In this document: piece by piece, positions 4,736-15,657 of the stretch
Layout of the letters: the number at the start of each line of letters is the position of its first letter
Numbering within the stretch: position 1 is the first letter of the stretch
Assembly (NCBI GenBank): GCA_029941465.1
Contig: JAPYQN010000013.1
Span: 1 to 37,830 of the forward strand
DNA: 37,830 nucleotides
Origin: Gammaproteobacteria bacterium
Lineage (GTDB): Bacteria > Pseudomonadota > Gammaproteobacteria > Steroidobacterales > UBA11654
Direction: 5' to 3'
The notes under the pieces: model-generated
What the model was told of the DNA's origin: nothing
What the model saw: only the letters and a program-made list of their open reading frames with translations
Databases searched by the model: none
Made by a program: the position numbers and the translations under genes

Positions 4736-4764
4736 TTTACAACATGGCTAATTGATATTAAGAT
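4736..4764 (+). promoter_or_regulatory. Predicted sigma70 promoter of the B12 riboswitch-btuB transcript
   Basis: TTTACA at 4736-4741 and TAAGAT at 4759-4764 are separated by exactly 17 bases. The expected start of transcription, near 4771, falls right at the 5' strand of the riboswitch P1 stem (4772). The promoter begins on the base after the pdxH stop codon. This is a sequence-pattern call, strengthened by the position. Confidence 0.6.
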
Positions 4765-4771
4765 AGCCACA

Positions 4772-4987
4772 TTGAGTTTCAGTTAATTAATGAACTGTAA
4801 GGGAAGTTGGTGAAAACAATCCAACGCTGCCCCCGCAACGGTGATCGAGTTAGCTCCTCTACAGAAGACTTTCAGTTTTCAACCACTATCAATAGATGGG
4901 AAGGTGTATTGGAGAATTAATCTTGTCAGCCCGGAGACCTACTCAAAAAAAATGTACGGTGGGTACGCGCTCTCATAGTAGGTTGAG
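4772..4987 (+). promoter_or_regulatory. Cobalamin (B12) riboswitch
   Basis: Senses cobalamin in the nascent mRNA and turns down the downstream uptake genes. The conserved core GCTGCCCCCGCAACGGTGA is at 4826-4844, preceded by the GGGAA..GGTGAAAA..TCC segment (4801-4822). The B12 box CAGCCCGGAGACCTAC lies at 4927-4942. P1 can form between TTGAGT (4772-4777) and ACTCAA (4941-4946). A kissing interaction is possible between CCCGC (4832-4836, loop L5) and GTGGG (4959-4963), which sits in the loop of a GTA/TAC hairpin (4954-4966). ACCTACT (4937-4943) can alternatively pair with AGTAGGT (4977-4983), which would break P1. There is no U-tract terminator, so control of translation is more likely than attenuation. 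Confidence 0.93.
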
Positions 4988-5024: not shown

Positions 5025-6803
5025 ATGAGAAACAGACTATTTCTAACAATTCTTTTTTTATCTTTTATGAATTATGAGGTTATTGCTGAAGATTCAGGAT
5101 TAATTGAAAACCTGATTATTACAGCTGCTAAAAGTCAACAGTTACCCAACGAAATCATTGTGCCTATTATTGTGATTGATCAGTCAGATATTGAGTTATC
5201 AGGTGTTAATAATATTGCTGAGTTGTTGAGTTTTGTTAATGGAATTAATATTTCAATCAATGGTGGTCCTGGTCAATTAACTTCAATTTTTGTTCAAGGA
5301 TCCAATAGCAATCAAGTATTAATACTCGTGGATGGGATAGCAATAAATGATTCTGCGACTGGCATAGCAGCAATACAAAATATTCATCCAGATATGGTTG
5401 AAAGAATTGAGATAGTCAAATCTCCAAGAGCTTCATTATATGGTTCAAATGCAGTCGGAGGTGTGATTAATATTTTCACCAAGCGTGACTCAGATAGGAC
5501 AACTTTAGGTTTTAAATATGGTTCAGATAAAACACAAATAATAAATATTTCCACAGGGAGTAAAACGACACATGGTAAATTAGGTTTGCACTTTAATGAC
5601 TATGATACTGATGGTTTTCCTAGCCAAGAAGCGAGCAACATCAACAGCAAACATAATAATAGATCAATTAATGGATTTTATGATGGCCAATGGGACAAAA
5701 CGATTATTAAAGCCAGTATTTTGGATAGTCGAGGAACCACTGATTACCTAGATTTTTTTGCAAACCCTATAAGCCAAGATTTTAATAACACCACTTTCAG
5801 TTTCAATTTAAATCAGGAAAAAAATGAGGTCTGGAAATCCAATATTAATTTTGGGTTGAGTAAAGATTTTCTGGATCAAAATAATTCAAATGACTTCAAT
5901 CATTCTAAAAACGTCATACTGGAGTGGAAAAATAATTTTAGCTTAAATAAAAACAATGAATTGTTAGCTGGTATAACTCTTGAAAATGAGCAATTTGATG
6001 CCAGCAATTATAGTTTAAATATTCATACTAACTTAAACAATAAAGCTCTCTTCTTAGAGAATATTTTTTCTAATGAAAAAAACCAATTCTTGGTAGCAAT
6101 TCGATTCAATGACAAAGAAGGTATTGATGATAAAATGAGTTGGAACCTTGAATATGGTCATCATATTAGCCCTAATACAAGATTATTATTAAATGCAGGG
6201 AAAGCCTTTAGAAATCCCTCTTCTTTTGATCTTTATGGCTTTGGGGGTAATACCTTACTGCAGCCAGAATACTCAGAGAAAATAAGCTTAGGTTTATCCT
6301 ATCAACCTAACTCCTCAACAAATATTGATCTTCACTATTTTGATAATAGAGTTAAGGATCTTATTGCTTTTAACTATTTAGATTTTAAGCTTTACAATAT
6401 TGAAAGATCAAAAACTTCTGGGATTGATCTCAATCTACAAACAACTATAAACAAATGGATTTTAAACCTTAATGCTACTCTTCAAGATCCAGAAAATTTA
6501 ACAACCTCAACCCAGTTACTAAGGCGACCAAAAAATTCATTCGGAATTGGGGTAAGACGAAGTTTTGAAAAGTTAACTTTTAATTTAAGTCTAGCTAAAA
6601 ACTCCTCCAGAAATGATTTTGGTGGGGTCGTTCTTGATGCTTATACTTTAGCAAACTTATCAATTCGATATCAGCTCAATAATCATTGGACTTTTAACAG
6701 CTCAATAAACAATCTTAATAATGAAGAATATACACTAGCGAATGGCTATGTTGCCCCTGACAGAAAGATTTATTTTGGGTTTATGTATAGCCCTAGAGGT
6801 TAA
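5025..6803 (+). CDS. btuB: TonB-dependent outer-membrane receptor, BtuB-type cobalamin transporter
   Basis: Imports corrinoids across the outer membrane with energy from TonB. A signal peptide is visible (MRNRLFLTILFLSF to about residue 22, ending near IAEDSG). It is followed by a TonB-box-like ENLIITAAK, the plug domain (residues about 40-150, with FVQGSNSNQVLILVDG and SPRASLYGSNAVGGVINI), and a beta-barrel to the C-terminus. The length of 592 is close to E. coli BtuB (614). The cobalamin riboswitch directly upstream and the adenosyltransferase directly downstream make B12 the substrate with good confidence. The C-terminus ends in SPRG rather than a terminal aromatic residue, which is slightly unusual for an outer-membrane barrel. 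Confidence 0.9.
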   Translation: MRNRLFLTILFLSFMNYEVIAEDSGLIENLIITAAKSQQLPNEIIVPIIVIDQSDIELSGVNNIAELLSFVNGINISINGGPGQLTSIFVQGSNSNQVLILVDGIAINDSATGIAAIQNIHPDMVERIEIVKSPRASLYGSNAVGGVINIFTKRDSDRTTLGFKYGSDKTQIINISTGSKTTHGKLGLHFNDYDTDGFPSQEASNINSKHNNRSINGFYDGQWDKTIIKASILDSRGTTDYLDFFANPISQDFNNTTFSFNLNQEKNEVWKSNINFGLSKDFLDQNNSNDFNHSKNVILEWKNNFSLNKNNELLAGITLENEQFDASNYSLNIHTNLNNKALFLENIFSNEKNQFLVAIRFNDKEGIDDKMSWNLEYGHHISPNTRLLLNAGKAFRNPSSFDLYGFGGNTLLQPEYSEKISLGLSYQPNSSTNIDLHYFDNRVKDLIAFNYLDFKLYNIERSKTSGIDLNLQTTINKWILNLNATLQDPENLTTSTQLLRRPKNSFGIGVRRSFEKLTFNLSLAKNSSRNDFGGVVLDAYTLANLSIRYQLNNHWTFNSSINNLNNEEYTLANGYVAPDRKIYFGFMYSPRG

Positions 6804-6844: not shown

Positions 6845-7396
6845 ATGGGTAATCGATTAACAAAGATTTATACAAAAAAGGGTGATGATGGCAGCACTGA
6901 TTTAGGAGGAAATCAACGCGTACCAAAATATGACCAGCAAATAGAAGTCTATGGTTCTCTTGATGAGTTAAGCGCTGCTATTGGGCTTATCATCACACAA
7001 ACAGGCGTTCCTGAAGAGATTGGAAAATTTCTTAGCAACTCTCAACAAGACCTTTTCAATATTGCTGGAGAAATTTCTGCTCCTAAATTCAGCAGCATGG
7101 ATGAAAAGAAAGTAGAGAAAATTGAAACTCTGATAGACAAGATTAACGGTGAATTACCCCCACTAAAAGAATTCGTCGTTCCAGGCACTAATCAACAGTC
7201 AGCTCAGACTCATCTCGCAAGAGCAATTTGCAGAAGAGCGGAAAGGGCCCTTGTTAAACTAGCTTCTGTAAAAGAAGTAAATCCTTTTGCTCTAAAATAT
7301 CTCAATCGACTATCGGATGCTTTCTTTGTTATTGCTAGAAAATTAGCTAGAGAAGACAGTGAAAAAGAAGTGGTTTGGGATCATAAACGTCCCTAA
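6845..7396 (+). CDS. PduO-type cob(I)alamin adenosyltransferase
   Basis: Transfers the adenosyl group of ATP to cob(I)alamin to make adenosylcobalamin. The N-terminal KIYTKKGDDGSTDLGG is the ATP-binding signature of the PduO/MMAB family, and ARAICRRAERALVKL carries the conserved arginine segment of the active site. The 183 residues fit a single-domain PduO enzyme. It lies 41 bases after btuB with no terminator between, so it is probably under the same riboswitch. It converts imported corrinoid to coenzyme form for B12 enzymes encoded elsewhere; MttB-type methyltransferases do not use the adenosyl form. It is unrelated in fold to CobA/BtuR. Confidence 0.92.
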   Translation: MGNRLTKIYTKKGDDGSTDLGGNQRVPKYDQQIEVYGSLDELSAAIGLIITQTGVPEEIGKFLSNSQQDLFNIAGEISAPKFSSMDEKKVEKIETLIDKINGELPPLKEFVVPGTNQQSAQTHLARAICRRAERALVKLASVKEVNPFALKYLNRLSDAFFVIARKLAREDSEKEVVWDHKRP

Positions 7397-10091: not shown

Positions 10092-10182
10092 CACAAAAGA
10101 ATTCAATTGACTAGACAAGAATAAATCGTAAAACTGATTAAAGGTTATTAACAATAAGTTGCAATTAGGGAGGAAATTAACC

Positions 10183-11730
10183 ATGTCTCGAAGAAGAGGT
10201 GGTCGTAAAGCCAAAGTTGCAATACGGTCAGCACCATTATCAGAAAAATCAAAGCCTGTTCATCCAGGAGAGTCCGGTGGTCAATATAAACCACTAAACA
10301 ATGAAGGTGTTGCAGATATAGTTGAGAATAGTTTTCGTATTTTAGAAGAAATTGGCTTTAATGAAGCTACTCCTCACTGCATTGAGGCATGCACAGCTTA
10401 TGGGGCAGTGATGAGCGATGATGGTCGACTCCGTATGCCACGAGAAGTGGTAAACAAAGCTATTGAAATGAGCAATAAGGATTTAATCCTATATGCACAA
10501 AATCCTGCCAATGATTTGCATGTCAACGGCAGTCGTGTGTATTTTGCTACTGCCGGTGCCGCGGTAATGATTGCTGATGCAGAAACCAAAACTTATCGTG
10601 ATTCAATGGCTCAAGATTTATACGATATGGCCCGTATCGCTGACACATGTGAACACATACATATATTTCAACGTACTTGCGTACTTAATGATGTCAAAGA
10701 TAATTATGCGATGGATTTGAACACTGCCTATAACTGTGTAATGGGCACCACTAAACATGTTGGTTCTAGCTGGACGGAAGCCCATCATCTTGAAAAAACA
10801 CTCAAACTCCTACATCTAATGGCCGGTGGAGAAGAAGCTTGGCGGATGAGGCCATTTGTCAGTCAATCCAATTGTTTTGTGGTTCCCCCGATGAAGTTTG
10901 CTGAAGAATCCTTGAAATGCCTGCGTATAGCAGTAGAAGGCGGCATGCCAGTGCTTTTACTCTCAGCAGGCCAGTCCGGAGCCACAGCGCCCCCTTGCCT
11001 TGCTGGTACTGTCTCTCAAGCATGGGCGGAATGCCTCGGTGGCTTAGTGTATGTCAATGCCATAAAGCCAGGGGCTCCCGCGATATTGGGTACATGGCCT
11101 TTTGTTTCAGACTTAAGAACAGGCGCCATGAGTGGTGGCTCACCAGAGCAAGGTCTTTTATCTGCTGCCTGTGCACAAATAGGTCAGCACTTCGGTTTAC
11201 CTATGGGTACTGGTGCTGGAATGTCAGACGCTAAGTTGCCTGATTTTCAAGGTGGTGCAGAACATGCTTCAAACGTTGCAGTCAGTGCTTTATCTGGAGC
11301 CAATATTGTGTATGAATCAGCTGGCATGTATTCCAGCCTCTTGGGTGCGTGTCTGGAAAGTTTACTGCTTGATAATGATCTCCTAGGCGCATGCATGCGA
11401 ATGGTAAAAGGCATAGCAGTCAATGAAGAGACACTGGCCTTTGATGAAATCAAAGACGTCTGTCTAAACAATAAGAGTCATTATCTCGGCTCAGATCAAA
11501 CTATCAGTGTCATGCAAACTGAGTACATCTACCCTGAATTTTATAATCGTCTGAGTCCGAATCAATGGAAAGATGCTGGAAAACCTGAAGCCTTGGATGC
11601 AGCCATTCAAAAGAAAAAGCATATTCTATCCTCTCATTTTCCTAAACATATCAGTAATGAAATCGATGATAAAATTCGTGCTGAATTTCCCATTTTCCTT
11701 AGCAAGGAATCTATGGGACGTAACGGTTGA
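10183..11730 (+). CDS. MttB-family (COG5598) methyltransferase, non-pyrrolysine type
   Basis: Member of the trimethylamine methyltransferase MttB superfamily, 515 residues. The ATG at 10183 has a strong GGGAGG Shine-Dalgarno 11 bases upstream; the in-frame TTG at 10159 lies upstream of that site and is not the start. The chain begins with a basic stretch (MSRRRGGRKAK), followed by the family's ILEEIGF segment and long TIM-barrel body. The frame is open throughout without an amber codon, so it is the non-pyrrolysine type. Known non-Pyl relatives demethylate quaternary amines such as glycine betaine to a corrinoid protein. Downstream BKACE, thioesterase and dimethylglycine dehydrogenase-like genes support a betaine-like substrate. 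No corrinoid-binding partner or RamA-type activator is encoded nearby. Substrate is inference. Confidence 0.82.
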   Translation: MSRRRGGRKAKVAIRSAPLSEKSKPVHPGESGGQYKPLNNEGVADIVENSFRILEEIGFNEATPHCIEACTAYGAVMSDDGRLRMPREVVNKAIEMSNKDLILYAQNPANDLHVNGSRVYFATAGAAVMIADAETKTYRDSMAQDLYDMARIADTCEHIHIFQRTCVLNDVKDNYAMDLNTAYNCVMGTTKHVGSSWTEAHHLEKTLKLLHLMAGGEEAWRMRPFVSQSNCFVVPPMKFAEESLKCLRIAVEGGMPVLLLSAGQSGATAPPCLAGTVSQAWAECLGGLVYVNAIKPGAPAILGTWPFVSDLRTGAMSGGSPEQGLLSAACAQIGQHFGLPMGTGAGMSDAKLPDFQGGAEHASNVAVSALSGANIVYESAGMYSSLLGACLESLLLDNDLLGACMRMVKGIAVNEETLAFDEIKDVCLNNKSHYLGSDQTISVMQTEYIYPEFYNRLSPNQWKDAGKPEALDAAIQKKKHILSSHFPKHISNEIDDKIRAEFPIFLSKESMGRNG

Positions 11731-11872: not shown

Positions 11873-12763
11873 ATGAATCGTAATGTTATTGTTAGCTGTG
11901 CGGTAACTGGTTCAGGGGCTTCTGTTGATAAACACCCTGCCATTCCAGTCACGCCAAAAGAAATTGCAGCCGCAGCGATAGAGGCTGCTAAAGCTGGTGC
12001 CGCCATTGCCCATATTCATGTGCGAGAACCCGATAGTGGTAAATCAAGCAGACGTGTAGAGCTGTATCGCGAAGTGGTGAGTCGTATTCGCGAAAGCAAT
12101 GTGGATGTTATCATTAACCTCACCACCGGCATGGGTGGTGATCTTTTTCTAGGTCCTGATGAGGAACCGATGAATTTTAGCGACAACACAGACTGTGTTG
12201 GAATGATGGAGCGAATAAAGCATGTTGAAGAGCTCTTGCCAGAAATTTGCTCTCTTGATTGTGGTTCATTCAATTATGCCGAAGGAGATTATGTCTATAT
12301 ATCAACTCCAAACATGCTGGAACAAGGAGCCAGAAGACTACAGGAAATAGGTGTGAAGCCAGAACTTGAAGTGTTTGAACTTGGACATATATCCTTTACT
12401 AAACATCTTATTGCTCAAGGATTACTGGATGATCCACCACTGTTTCAGGTTTGTCTTGGTATACGCTGGGCTGCTGAAGCAAATACTGCGTCCTTTAAAA
12501 CCATGGTTGATGCACTACCAGAAGGTTGTAATTGGGCAGGGTTTGGGACCAGTGCCATGGAAATGCCCATGGTGGCTCAAGCCGTACTCTTGGGTGGAAA
12601 TATTCGAGTAGGTCTCGAAGATAACCTCTATTTGGAAAAGGGTGTTTTTGCATCGAATGGCCAATTGGTGGAGAGGGCTTGCAATATTATTCAACTCATG
12701 GGATGTTCAATTCAAACACCATCTGAAGCGAGACAAACTCTTGGCCTCAAAAGGCCCGTATAG
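11873..12763 (+). CDS. Beta-keto acid cleavage enzyme (BKACE), probable 3-dehydrocarnitine cleavage
   Basis: BKACE (DUF849) enzymes are zinc-dependent and condense a beta-keto acid with acetyl-CoA to give acetoacetate and a new acyl-CoA. The zinc motif is visible as His47 and His49 in [46 protein letters not shown] and SNGQLVERA are family positions. From memory, the segments around [15 protein letters not shown] and LDCGS resemble the Pseudomonas carnitine-catabolism enzyme that turns 3-dehydrocarnitine into betainyl-CoA. The neighbouring thioesterase and dimethylglycine dehydrogenase-like genes fit this. Length 296 is normal. The start at 11873 lacks a clear Shine-Dalgarno. Cleavage of another keto acid remains possible. 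Confidence 0.85.
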
Positions 12764-12789: not shown

Positions 12790-13218
12790 ATGGTTTTAGT
12801 ACAAAAAAACGTTGCACACCCATGGATGTGTGACATTTTAGGTCATATGACCACTCGTCATTATGTGGCCATGTTTGATGATGCTGCTTACCACATGTTA
12901 TACACGGTCTTTGGATGGACTGGCTCTAGCGATGCAGAGAATAAAATTGCTTGGGCAGACGTTCAGCATGTGATTGATTACAAGGCAGAAGTATCGGTTG
13001 GCGACATACTTGAAATTGATGCAAAACTAACCAAAATTGGGAACAAATCCATCACAATTCTTTATGAGATGAAAAATCTTGGTAATAATGAAGTTGCTGC
13101 AACACTTAAATGCATTTGCGTGCTCTTTGATTTACACACACGCAAATCTGTTGAGATCTCTACAGAATTAAGAGAGCTGGCATCAAAGTATCTGATAGAA
13201 ACAACAAACGACAAATAA
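12790..13218 (+). CDS. Hotdog-fold acyl-CoA thioesterase, probable betainyl-CoA thioesterase
   Basis: 4-hydroxybenzoyl-CoA thioesterase-like protein, 142 residues. The catalytic segment is near the N-terminus: Asp15 and His19 in CDILGHMTTRHYVAMFDDA. The core continues with WADVQHVIDYKAEVSVGD and ALKCICV-like strands. It starts at 12790 with a GGAG Shine-Dalgarno 7 bases upstream, and is 26 bases after BKACE and 15 before the dehydrogenase, so it is part of one operon. In Pseudomonas carnitine catabolism a small thioesterase hydrolyses betainyl-CoA to glycine betaine after BKACE; the same role is inferred here from position and family. Confidence 0.82.
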   Translation: MVLVQKNVAHPWMCDILGHMTTRHYVAMFDDAAYHMLYTVFGWTGSSDAENKIAWADVQHVIDYKAEVSVGDILEIDAKLTKIGNKSITILYEMKNLGNNEVAATLKCICVLFDLHTRKSVEISTELRELASKYLIETTNDK

Positions 13219-13233
13219 AACACTGAGATTATC

Positions 13234-15657
13234 ATGAATAATCAAGCACGGATTGTAATCGTAGGCGGAGGCATTATGGGTGTGTCACTGCTATACCATT
13301 TAGCAGAAGAAGGTTGCAAAGACATCCTCTTAATTGAAAAGGGTGAATTAACGTCAGGTTCAACTTGGCATGCTGCTGGGCAATGTCCAAGTATGGTTGG
13401 AAACTATAACTTGGCAAAAATTCACAATTACGGAAATTGGTTGTATTCACGACTCGAAGAAATTACTGGTCAATACGTTAGTTGGCACCCCTCAGGTGGT
13501 ATCCGACTTGCTTTAACTCAAGATGATCTTGATTGGTTTCATTACATGAAAGGAATCGCTAACAATGTGGGTTTTCGTATGGAAATCATTGACACTGAAA
13601 AGATCAAGGAGATTAATCCTTTTATCGATACAGAGGGGGTGATTGCTGGTGCATGGACTCTCGATGATGGTCATGCAGATCCAGCAGGTCTCACAAATGC
13701 CATGGCTCGTGGTGCAAAAAATATGGGAGCTAGTATTGAACGACATAATCGTGTTCTTGATATAAAACCAATGGCCTCTGGTGAATGGCAAGTGATTACA
13801 GAAAAGGGAAATGTTATAGCAGAAACAGTGGTCAATGCAGCGGGTTGCTATGCTCGGAGGATAGCACAAATGGTTGACAGAGATTACCCAATTGTGAACA
13901 TTCAACACCACTATATTGTGACCGATGTTATCGAAGAATTTGCCCAACGTGATGAAGAGATTCAGGTTATTAGAGACCCTCGGGCTTCTTCTTATCTGAG
14001 ACAAGAGCAACAATCAGGTTTGATAGGTATCTATGAAAGAAAGGGCATGACTGAAGCCTGGGCACCCGATGGACTGCCACCCTGGGAATCAGACAGTGAG
14101 CTCTTTTCAGAAGATCTAGAACGTTTAATGCCATGGCTTCAATATGCAATGGAACGAATTCCAGTTTTTGAAGGTGTGGGAATCAAACAAGTTGTTTGTG
14201 GTGCTATCCCTCACACTCCCGATGGAGCTCCCCTCCTCGGTCCAGTGGCTGGTCTGAATAACTTTTGGAATTGTTGTGGGGCATCATTCGGTATTGCTCA
14301 GGCTGCTGGTTGTGGAAAATACCTTACCCAATGGATGTTGTATGGAGATTCAGAAATCAATATGACAGGTTTTGATTCAAGACGATACGGTAGTTACGCT
14401 GATAAAGCCTATATGAATGAAACAGGTTTCCAAGATTATAAAATGACATATGTCACACCAATGCCGGGTGAAGAATTACCAGCCGGTAGATCTCGAAGAA
14501 TCAGTCCATTGCATGACAAGCTGAAAAGCAAGGGCTGTGTCTATACAGAAACCTTCGGCTGGGAAAGACCAAAATGGTTCTCATTAGATGGTAGAGAGGA
14601 ACATTATAACCGCCGTCATAATAATGTCTTTGATGTGATTCGTGATGAGTGTTTTGCTGTTCGTGAGCGTGTTGGTATTCTGGATTTAACAGGTTTTGCT
14701 AAATATGACGTTACCGGTACTGATGCTGAAGCTTATTTGAATCGAATCTTTGCCAATAAAATGCCAGTGAAAACAGGCGGCATTGTGCTCGCTCATATTT
14801 TATCCAATGCCGGCAGAATCAATGCAGAAATGACAATCACTCGCATGGGAAATGATCAATTCTATGTGCTCTCAGCAGCAGGAGCAGAAATCCGTGATGT
14901 AGATTATCTTACTCAGGCTAAAACTGCAGAAGAAAATGTCGAAATTGTAAACATTACAGATAAGCGAGGAGTACTAGTACTTGCTGGTCCAAAAGCACGC
15001 GAGGTAATGGTAAAAGTTACGGAAGAAAAGCTCGATAATGCTTCGTTTCCATGGTTGACAGGAAAAGATATAAACATTGCTGGATTGCCAACTCGGGCAT
15101 TGCGAATCAATTATGTGGGTGAGTTGGGCTGGGAATTGCACCCGCCAATTGAGCACTTGGAAGCAATTTACGATGCTCTATGGCAAGCCGGGGAAGAATT
15201 TGGTATTGCTGATTTTGGTCTTTATGCCGTGGATAGCTTAAGAATGGAAAAAGCGTATCGCCATTGGGGAGGTGAACTGACCAATGAGGTAACCATGATT
15301 GATGCTGATATGGAACGTTTTATTAAATTAGACAAAGATAATTTTATTGGTAAGGCAGCAACTCTTCGCCAACAACAAGAGGAGCGTCTTTTTCAACTGG
15401 TGTATTTCGAGATTGAGGCCACTGATTCAGACGTCCATGGTGGCGAACCCATTTTTATCTCAGACAAGTGTGTTGGTATAACCACTTCCGGTGGCTACGG
15501 CCATTTCACGAAAAAAAGTCTCGGTTTTGGTTATGTGGATCCTGTCAATTCCAAGCCTGGAACTGCACTGGATATAGACCTACTTGGCGAGCGCTGCAGG
15601 GCCACTGTGATAAAGGATCCAATATATGATCCAACCAATGAACGATTGAAGGCATAA
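13234..15657 (+). CDS. Dimethylglycine/sarcosine dehydrogenase-like flavoprotein with GcvT domain
   Basis: Oxidative demethylase of 807 residues. The FAD-binding DAO domain (about 1-380) begins with IVIVGGGIMG (7-16). SGSTWHAAGQ contains His46, which aligns with the histidine that carries covalent FAD in dimethylglycine and sarcosine dehydrogenases. From about 420 the GcvT/aminomethyltransferase-like part follows (FAVRERVGILDLTGFAKY, GYVGELGWELH-type segment as INYVGELGWELH, GLYAVDSLRMEK, GGYGHFTKKSLGFGYVD). That domain normally passes the released one-carbon unit to tetrahydrofolate. Operon position after BKACE and thioesterase fits conversion of dimethylglycine to sarcosine. Sarcosine is an alternative substrate. 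Confidence 0.87.
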   Translation: MNNQARIVIVGGGIMGVSLLYHLAEEGCKDILLIEKGELTSGSTWHAAGQCPSMVGNYNLAKIHNYGNWLYSRLEEITGQYVSWHPSGGIRLALTQDDLDWFHYMKGIANNVGFRMEIIDTEKIKEINPFIDTEGVIAGAWTLDDGHADPAGLTNAMARGAKNMGASIERHNRVLDIKPMASGEWQVITEKGNVIAETVVNAAGCYARRIAQMVDRDYPIVNIQHHYIVTDVIEEFAQRDEEIQVIRDPRASSYLRQEQQSGLIGIYERKGMTEAWAPDGLPPWESDSELFSEDLERLMPWLQYAMERIPVFEGVGIKQVVCGAIPHTPDGAPLLGPVAGLNNFWNCCGASFGIAQAAGCGKYLTQWMLYGDSEINMTGFDSRRYGSYADKAYMNETGFQDYKMTYVTPMPGEELPAGRSRRISPLHDKLKSKGCVYTETFGWERPKWFSLDGREEHYNRRHNNVFDVIRDECFAVRERVGILDLTGFAKYDVTGTDAEAYLNRIFANKMPVKTGGIVLAHILSNAGRINAEMTITRMGNDQFYVLSAAGAEIRDVDYLTQAKTAEENVEIVNITDKRGVLVLAGPKAREVMVKVTEEKLDNASFPWLTGKDINIAGLPTRALRINYVGELGWELHPPIEHLEAIYDALWQAGEEFGIADFGLYAVDSLRMEKAYRHWGGELTNEVTMIDADMERFIKLDKDNFIGKAATLRQQQEERLFQLVYFEIEATDSDVHGGEPIFISDKCVGITTSGGYGHFTKKSLGFGYVDPVNSKPGTALDIDLLGERCRATVIKDPIYDPTNERLKA

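Follow-up and report, generated by a model that had tools for sequence, protein, structure and literature searches.

An MttB-family methyltransferase encoded apart from its probable corrinoid partner, and basic tails as candidate docking tags for a shared acidic carrier

Enzymes of the MttB type methylate the Co(I) corrinoid held by a carrier protein, while MtgD shuttles the methyl group between carrier and folate and RamA is responsible for reactivation. The closest described arrangement is the aerobic MtgBCDE system, presented in 2018 and 2025 as glycine betaine demethylase and split methionine synthase (PMC5764234; PMC12478193). The split methionine synthase was approached by genetics in Phaeobacter inhibens (PMC5764234), and genetics in Ruegeria pomeroyi connected MtgBCDE, together with RamA and DUF1638, to glycine betaine demethylation and methionine synthesis (PMC12478193). 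The latter work describes the system as a major ocean route of glycine betaine demethylation doubling as methionine synthase, and reports mtgB of R. pomeroyi as unlinked to mtgC (PMC12478193). For the MttB-MttC complex it is known that MttC is held by the dimerisation loop of the partner MttB and by the cofactor (PMC9842639). Here, a gammaproteobacterial locus is compared with these systems in terms of gene content, genomic context and terminal sequences of the enzymes involved.

The window, i.e. the whole 37.8-kb stretch of DNA analysed, is contig C13 of a 1.39-Mb Woeseia-like gammaproteobacterial MAG (about 92% complete, 37.5% G+C). Its gene mttB1 (10183..11730, forward strand) codes for an MtgB-type quaternary-amine:corrinoid methyltransferase of 515 aa, and the affiliation with the MttB family given in the preliminary description holds: the gene is intact, its product matches PF06253 as a full-length TIM barrel (353 bits at a cut-off of 25, profile positions 1-490 of 500), and the best solved-structure matches found by Foldseek are MttB (7xcl) and MtgB (9yce/2qne). 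Since the ATG at 10183 is preceded by a strong ribosome-binding site (GGGAGGA), it was preferred over the program-called TTG at 10159. The pyrrolysine position of Methanosarcina MttB corresponds to Met347 in MttB1 (ATG at 11221) and no in-frame TAG is present within mttB1, so that the protein is attributed to non-pyrrolysine homologues; assignment to pyrrolysine MttB (TIGR02369 equivalog) was rejected, the score being 323 bits versus a cut-off of 525 and methionine replacing the amber codon. Two mttB genes exceed the threshold of the Rfam family PYLIS_3 (11221-11320 in the window and 14675-14768 in locus L010); the window match begins at the Met347 codon, both matches fall on mttB coding sequence, and the family probably just picks up such sequence, being a source of false annotation. 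Altogether three MttB paralogues are encoded in the genome, with mutual identity of 37-48% and 28-30% identity to MtgB of Desulfitobacterium hafniense (DhMtgB).

Profile searches over all contigs gave no B12-binding or RamA family match in the window contig, in line with the initial remark that corrinoid partner and RamA are missing from the 37.8 kb, and the search of the remaining genome for B12-binding proteins (PF02310/PF02607) and RamA, which had been proposed along with it, located both on contig C15. The sole stand-alone corrinoid protein of the genome, MtgC (PF02607+PF02310), is encoded at C15:1115-1801 and the sole RamA at C15:3593-5593, within the gene order MtgE (PF02574), MtgC, DUF1638, pterin-binding MtgD (NF005719, 356 bits), RamA and GbcA-like Rieske oxygenase. 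According to Pfam and NCBIfam matches on this contig the aerobic set of MtgC, MtgD, MtgE, RamA and DUF1638 is entirely present, and of the two explanations originally offered, the one placing the partner elsewhere proved right. Classical MetH is absent from this about 92% complete genome, the single PF02607 match being MtgC, which fits a usual, although not universal, trait of MtgBCDE carriers. The other two MttB paralogues lie at the end of contig C14, after a BCCT transporter and MetF. Because both blocks are contiguous in a Woeseia sp. MAG with 90% identical MtgC (locus L013, BCCT-MetF-MttB2-MttB3-MtgE-MtgC-DUF1638-MtgD-RamA-Rieske), this comparison suggests that C14 and C15 adjoin in the source genome.

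Some gene products met in these and related loci deserve separate mention. The GbcA-like Rieske oxygenase encoded after ramA (L009, 5635-6882) scores 320 bits at a cut-off of 670, and its position implies that the genome may hold both oxygen-dependent and corrinoid-dependent demethylation routes. A DmdA-like (DMSP demethylase) protein (L010, 8733-9860, reverse strand; 406.6 bits versus a cut-off of 410) adjoins BCCT and the mttB pair. In a genome likewise encoding split MtgCDE (locus L244) a short MetE-like protein (G000:C2:24241-25212; PF01717, open frame of 367 aa) is a possible second methionine synthase.

The distribution of MttB and MtgC across genomes is nearly coincident. MttB is found in 12 of 229 sampled genomes of the class, and a stand-alone MtgC (60-100% identity) in exactly these 12; in the phylum sample MtgC accompanies MttB in 37 of 38 further genomes (63-68% identity). 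RamA is present in all 32 of the MttB-containing genomes checked for it. Taken together, 49 of 50 sampled Pseudomonadota genomes with an MttB gene contain MtgC, the exception (G308) having an MttB fragment of 72 residues. Orthologues of MttB1 are also physically associated with the carrier gene: one (70% identical, L077) ends 2 bp upstream of mtgC and another (67% identical, L031) is encoded in the same locus with it. Several MttB paralogues per single MtgC are common, amounting to three in the source genome and to six matches in several others, and in the clade of MttB1 an MttB gene without adjoining corrinoid gene is normal. It was supposed beforehand that this subgroup might work differently, using free cobalamin or a folate-linked partner, and, in the extended form considered here, without any corrinoid protein, e.g. 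by passing the methyl group straight to the adjoining GcvT-dehydrogenase. Such a mode of action would agree with the lack of a corrinoid gene in the window and with the proximity of the B12 uptake module and GcvT domain, but one MtgC and one RamA encoded elsewhere, near-perfect co-occurrence, the coupling of the L077 orthologue to mtgC and an equivalent of the MttB dimerisation loop present in MttB1 (modelled with low confidence in the monomer) make it scarcely credible. Free-cobalamin or corrinoid-independent action of MttB1 was rejected on genome content and co-occurrence, and the operonic or clustered position of its orthologues with mtgC does not favor it either. An MttC-like protein encoded elsewhere and co-expressed with mttB1 had been named as the observation that would decide against this supposition; in respect of gene content it was found as MtgC on C15. 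As a whole, the data are best explained, with high probability in our estimation, by MttB1 being an MtgB-type enzyme served by shared MtgC from another contig. Together with its partners it is a further member of the published MtgBCDE system, and the puzzle of this “orphan MttB” is closed at the genome level.

Both landmarks mentioned in the preliminary description, the GcvT-containing dehydrogenase and the B12 uptake module about 3 kb away, were confirmed by family matches and coordinates, all of them on the forward strand. Upstream of mttB1, a cobalamin riboswitch (4757..4960; Rfam RF00174, 79.4 bits, E=7e-18) precedes btuB for a BtuB-type TonB-dependent B12 receptor (5025..6803; PF00593/PF07715; TIGR01779 at 313 bits, below the 599.7-bit cut-off) and the gene of a PduO-type cob(I)alamin adenosyltransferase (6845..7396; TIGR00636 at 176 bits, over cut-off). 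This module stops 2.8 kb before mttB1 and is probably under B12 control, the riboswitch being directly upstream of the receptor gene. Downstream, mttB1 is followed by a BKACE (beta-keto acid cleavage enzyme; 11873..12763; PF05853, 320 bits), which by context is a candidate for CdhC-like 3-dehydrocarnitine cleavage, by a hot-dog thioesterase (12790..13218; PF13279), which gives a weak match to the fusion model of carnitine 3-dehydrogenase within its thioesterase portion and is a candidate CdhB-like betainyl-CoA thioesterase, and by a fusion of FAD oxidoreductase (DAO) and GcvT of the dimethylglycine/sarcosine dehydrogenase type (13234..15657; PF01266+PF16350+PF01571+PF08669).

In terms of Cdh chemistry the pair of BKACE and thioesterase would give glycine betaine from dehydrocarnitine. 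Judging from sequence and context, glycine betaine is the most likely substrate of MttB1, and this adjoining pair plausibly liberates it from a carnitine derivative. BKACE and thioesterase are present, and no CdhA carnitine 3-dehydrogenase passes the cut-off in the about 92% complete genome, which leaves a gap in the carnitine route as observed. It is possible, although on balance less probable, that the partner assignment is right while the substrate is another quaternary amine (carnitine, dehydrocarnitine, proline betaine, choline or other). Judging from titles of works cited in PMC12478193, the MttB superfamily includes demethylases of carnitine, proline betaine and gamma-butyrobetaine, and identity does not single out a betaine enzyme in the source genome since the three paralogues, as dissimilar to each other as stated above, are about equidistant from DhMtgB; a substrate other than glycine betaine is, however, at odds both with the expected product of the BKACE-thioesterase pair and with the adjoining GcvT-dehydrogenase, which fits dimethylglycine as a product.

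The strongly basic N-terminal tail noticed at the outset is retained with the ATG start and its ribosome-binding site. It comprises MSRRRGGRKAKVAIR, the first 15 residues of MttB1 (10183..10227, forward strand), and is proposed as an MtgC docking tag on the basis of predicted disorder and homologue survey, residues 1-35 being disordered in the AF2 model (pLDDT < 50). All three MttB proteins of the source genome possess basic N-termini, while MtgE, MtgD and RamA bear basic C-termini (AKRERKRKRR, REPREKRSRRKRRS and KTTRKRRRKRTSDL, respectively). A survey of 80 loci around MtgC homologues, encompassing Alpha-, Beta- and Gammaproteobacteria, Chloroflexi, Actinobacteria and Myxococcota, revealed recurrence of the tails with constant charge and composition and variable sequence: R-rich tails are carried by nearly all MttB, MtgD, MtgE and RamA proteins of the system, from Proteobacteria to Chloroflexi and Actinobacteria. 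For quantitative estimation the loci were dereplicated to 33 representatives (MtgC below 85% mutual identity) and C-terminal net charge was calculated over 15 residues. Its value was at least +3 in 46 of 48 C-termini of MtgD, RamA and MtgE; the same threshold was reached by only 1 of 43 non-client neighbors, i.e. operon neighbors that exchange no methyl group with the corrinoid (DUF1638, MetF, DMGDH, Rieske, BCCT; Fisher p=2e-22), and by 17% of other ORFs. The GcvT-dehydrogenase of the window (13234..15657), also among the controls, has no basic C-tail. R/K-rich disordered tails at one terminus mark the enzymes predicted to interact with MtgC and are as a rule absent in non-clients. The RamA tail was present in all 32 sequences from independently sampled genomes, and 106 of 112 distinct MttB sequences have a basic tail at one end, N-terminal in 102. 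Four divergent MttB proteins begin at the fold (MRPQLNVL...) and carry a GRRGRAGRRRR-like tail at the C-terminus instead. Six of the 112 have a tail at neither end, two of which (L040, L047) have basic sequence upstream of the called start; in two Chloroflexi MtgD tails the basic stretch is slightly internal. With the start caller used for MttB, few basic N-termini were counted in DUF1638, MtgC, MtgD and DMGDH, while those of MetF are moderately basic at the +4 threshold (fraction of 0.54) and never at +5.

Two observations made in the survey concern proteins at the margin of this pattern. The divergent MttB subfamily (about 27% identical; L014, 16823-18322, and L017, L032, L086) starts with MRP(Q/K/T)L and has the C-terminal basic tail. 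DUF1638 (L009, 1804-2394, and homologues) adjoins mtgC in most loci and has a basic C-tail in 0 of 68 cases, therefore it may not bind MtgC in the manner of methyltransferases and RamA. Further tail-bearing clients beyond MttB, MtgD, MtgE and RamA were sought in 20-kb loci and none is claimed, because the remaining basic-tailed ORFs look mostly like spurious frames.

Since many sampled genomes are G+C-rich and arginine codons are common there, the tails might be considered as a by-product of base composition, i.e. Arg-rich junk at gene ends, or as functionless inheritance. We find this very improbable: tail charge correlates negatively with G+C (-0.44), the source genome with only 37.5% G+C has tails among the strongest, with Arg preference of 0.65 versus 0.37 in protein bodies (p=5e-4), the tails occur in four non-homologous families, and one MttB subfamily carries them at the C-terminus instead. 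A G+C artefact as their origin was rejected on the sign of this correlation and on the Arg-rich tails of the AT-rich source genome.

A counterpart of opposite charge is found in the carrier. MtgC of the source genome starts with MPEEFDDIILSELDDQELT, and MtgC homologues have an N-terminal extension whose 14 residues preceding the cap helix carry a mean net charge of -6.2, with no homologue above -4 (n=54). The AF2 model shows this extension as a short stretch running into the cap bundle, and very low confidence is confined to residues 1-5. The strong basic tail is not shared by MtgC, the mean charge of its last 15 residues being about +2. A corrinoid protein with UroD-type partner (L133, genome G014), 44% identical, represents a separate system with neither acidic extension nor basic tails; this pair of corrinoid protein and UroD-type methyltransferase is encoded at 333-2205 of its locus, beside a CoA-transferase-like gene and in a genome without MttB. 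Anaerobic homologues lack the tails as well; RACo, for instance, ends nine residues past the homologous core.

Disordered tails rich in arginine and glycine often bind polyanions. The main alternative to docking is thus that the tails bind RNA, DNA, polyphosphate or membrane, or form a condensate, the enzymes being co-localized without direct binding to MtgC; conservation of charge and composition rather than sequence is compatible with it. We nevertheless regard it as less likely, given that MtgC has the acidic extension in place of a strong tail, that DUF1638, MetF and DMGDH of the same operons lack tails, and that the separate corrinoid system of the same class is devoid of both features. 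We infer docking tags from the acidic extension of MtgC, from tailless DUF1638 and MetF and from the absence of both traits in the separate system, and lean slightly towards a charge-based docking code, in which Arg-rich tails on non-homologous clients (MtgB paralogues, MtgD, MtgE and RamA) would engage the acidic N-terminal extension of MtgC. No mention of tails, docking or electrostatics in the MtgBCDE system was found in open-licence literature, and as far as the latter shows the charged-tail pattern is undescribed.

The sequence of events proposed for this system would then be as follows. MttB1 would take a methyl group off the quaternary amine and load it onto the Co(I) corrinoid bound by the single shared carrier MtgC; MtgD would pass it to tetrahydrofolate or, in reverse, on to MtgE for methionine synthesis; RamA would re-reduce the corrinoid of MtgC, and the adjoining GcvT-dehydrogenase probably performs the next (dimethylglycine/sarcosine) step. 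Interchangeable tails would recruit every client to acidic MtgC, being a stand-in for the covalent fusion of MetH, and such docking could allow a split methyltransferase with several clients to function in air even when protein concentration is low. If true, the combination of basic tag and acidic carrier extension explains how one carrier may be common to several unfused enzymes, and the tail becomes a sequence rule to spot MtgC clients among many MttB paralogues.

The source genome shares with R. pomeroyi and P. inhibens the same set of MtgB, stand-alone MtgC, pterin-binding MtgD, homocysteine-binding MtgE, RamA, DUF1638 and a MetF paralogue, and with R. pomeroyi also the separation of an mtgB-type gene from mtgC; it differs from both in being small and AT-rich, in having three MtgB paralogues and in the BKACE-thioesterase pair beside one of them, and neither the tails nor the acidic MtgC extension is brought up in the papers on these two bacteria (PMC12478193; PMC5764234). 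MtgB, MtgA and MtgC of D. hafniense (PDB 9yce, 2qne, 4o0q, 4jgi) have the same chemistry and folds, but DhMtgB, which is 28% identical to MttB1 and adopts the same fold, has five residues ahead of the homologous core and no tail, MtgA/AcsE-type proteins end soon after the core, likewise without a comparable tail, and in the Moorella corrinoid protein 1y80 about four residues precede the cap helix, with no comparable extension. Both MttB1 and MtgC find their closest fold counterpart in Methanosarcina MttB-MttC (PDB 7xcn); the equivalent of its dimerisation loop is present in MttB1, where pyrrolysine is replaced by Met347, and while MttC has one dedicated methyltransferase, MtgC is predicted to serve several. 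In relation to MetH, MtgE, MtgD and MtgC are counterparts of the homocysteine, folate and cobalamin modules, respectively, with the difference that the modules are separate proteins and that RamA replaces the SAM-dependent reactivation domain; by analogy, the tails may stand in for the covalent linkage of MetH.
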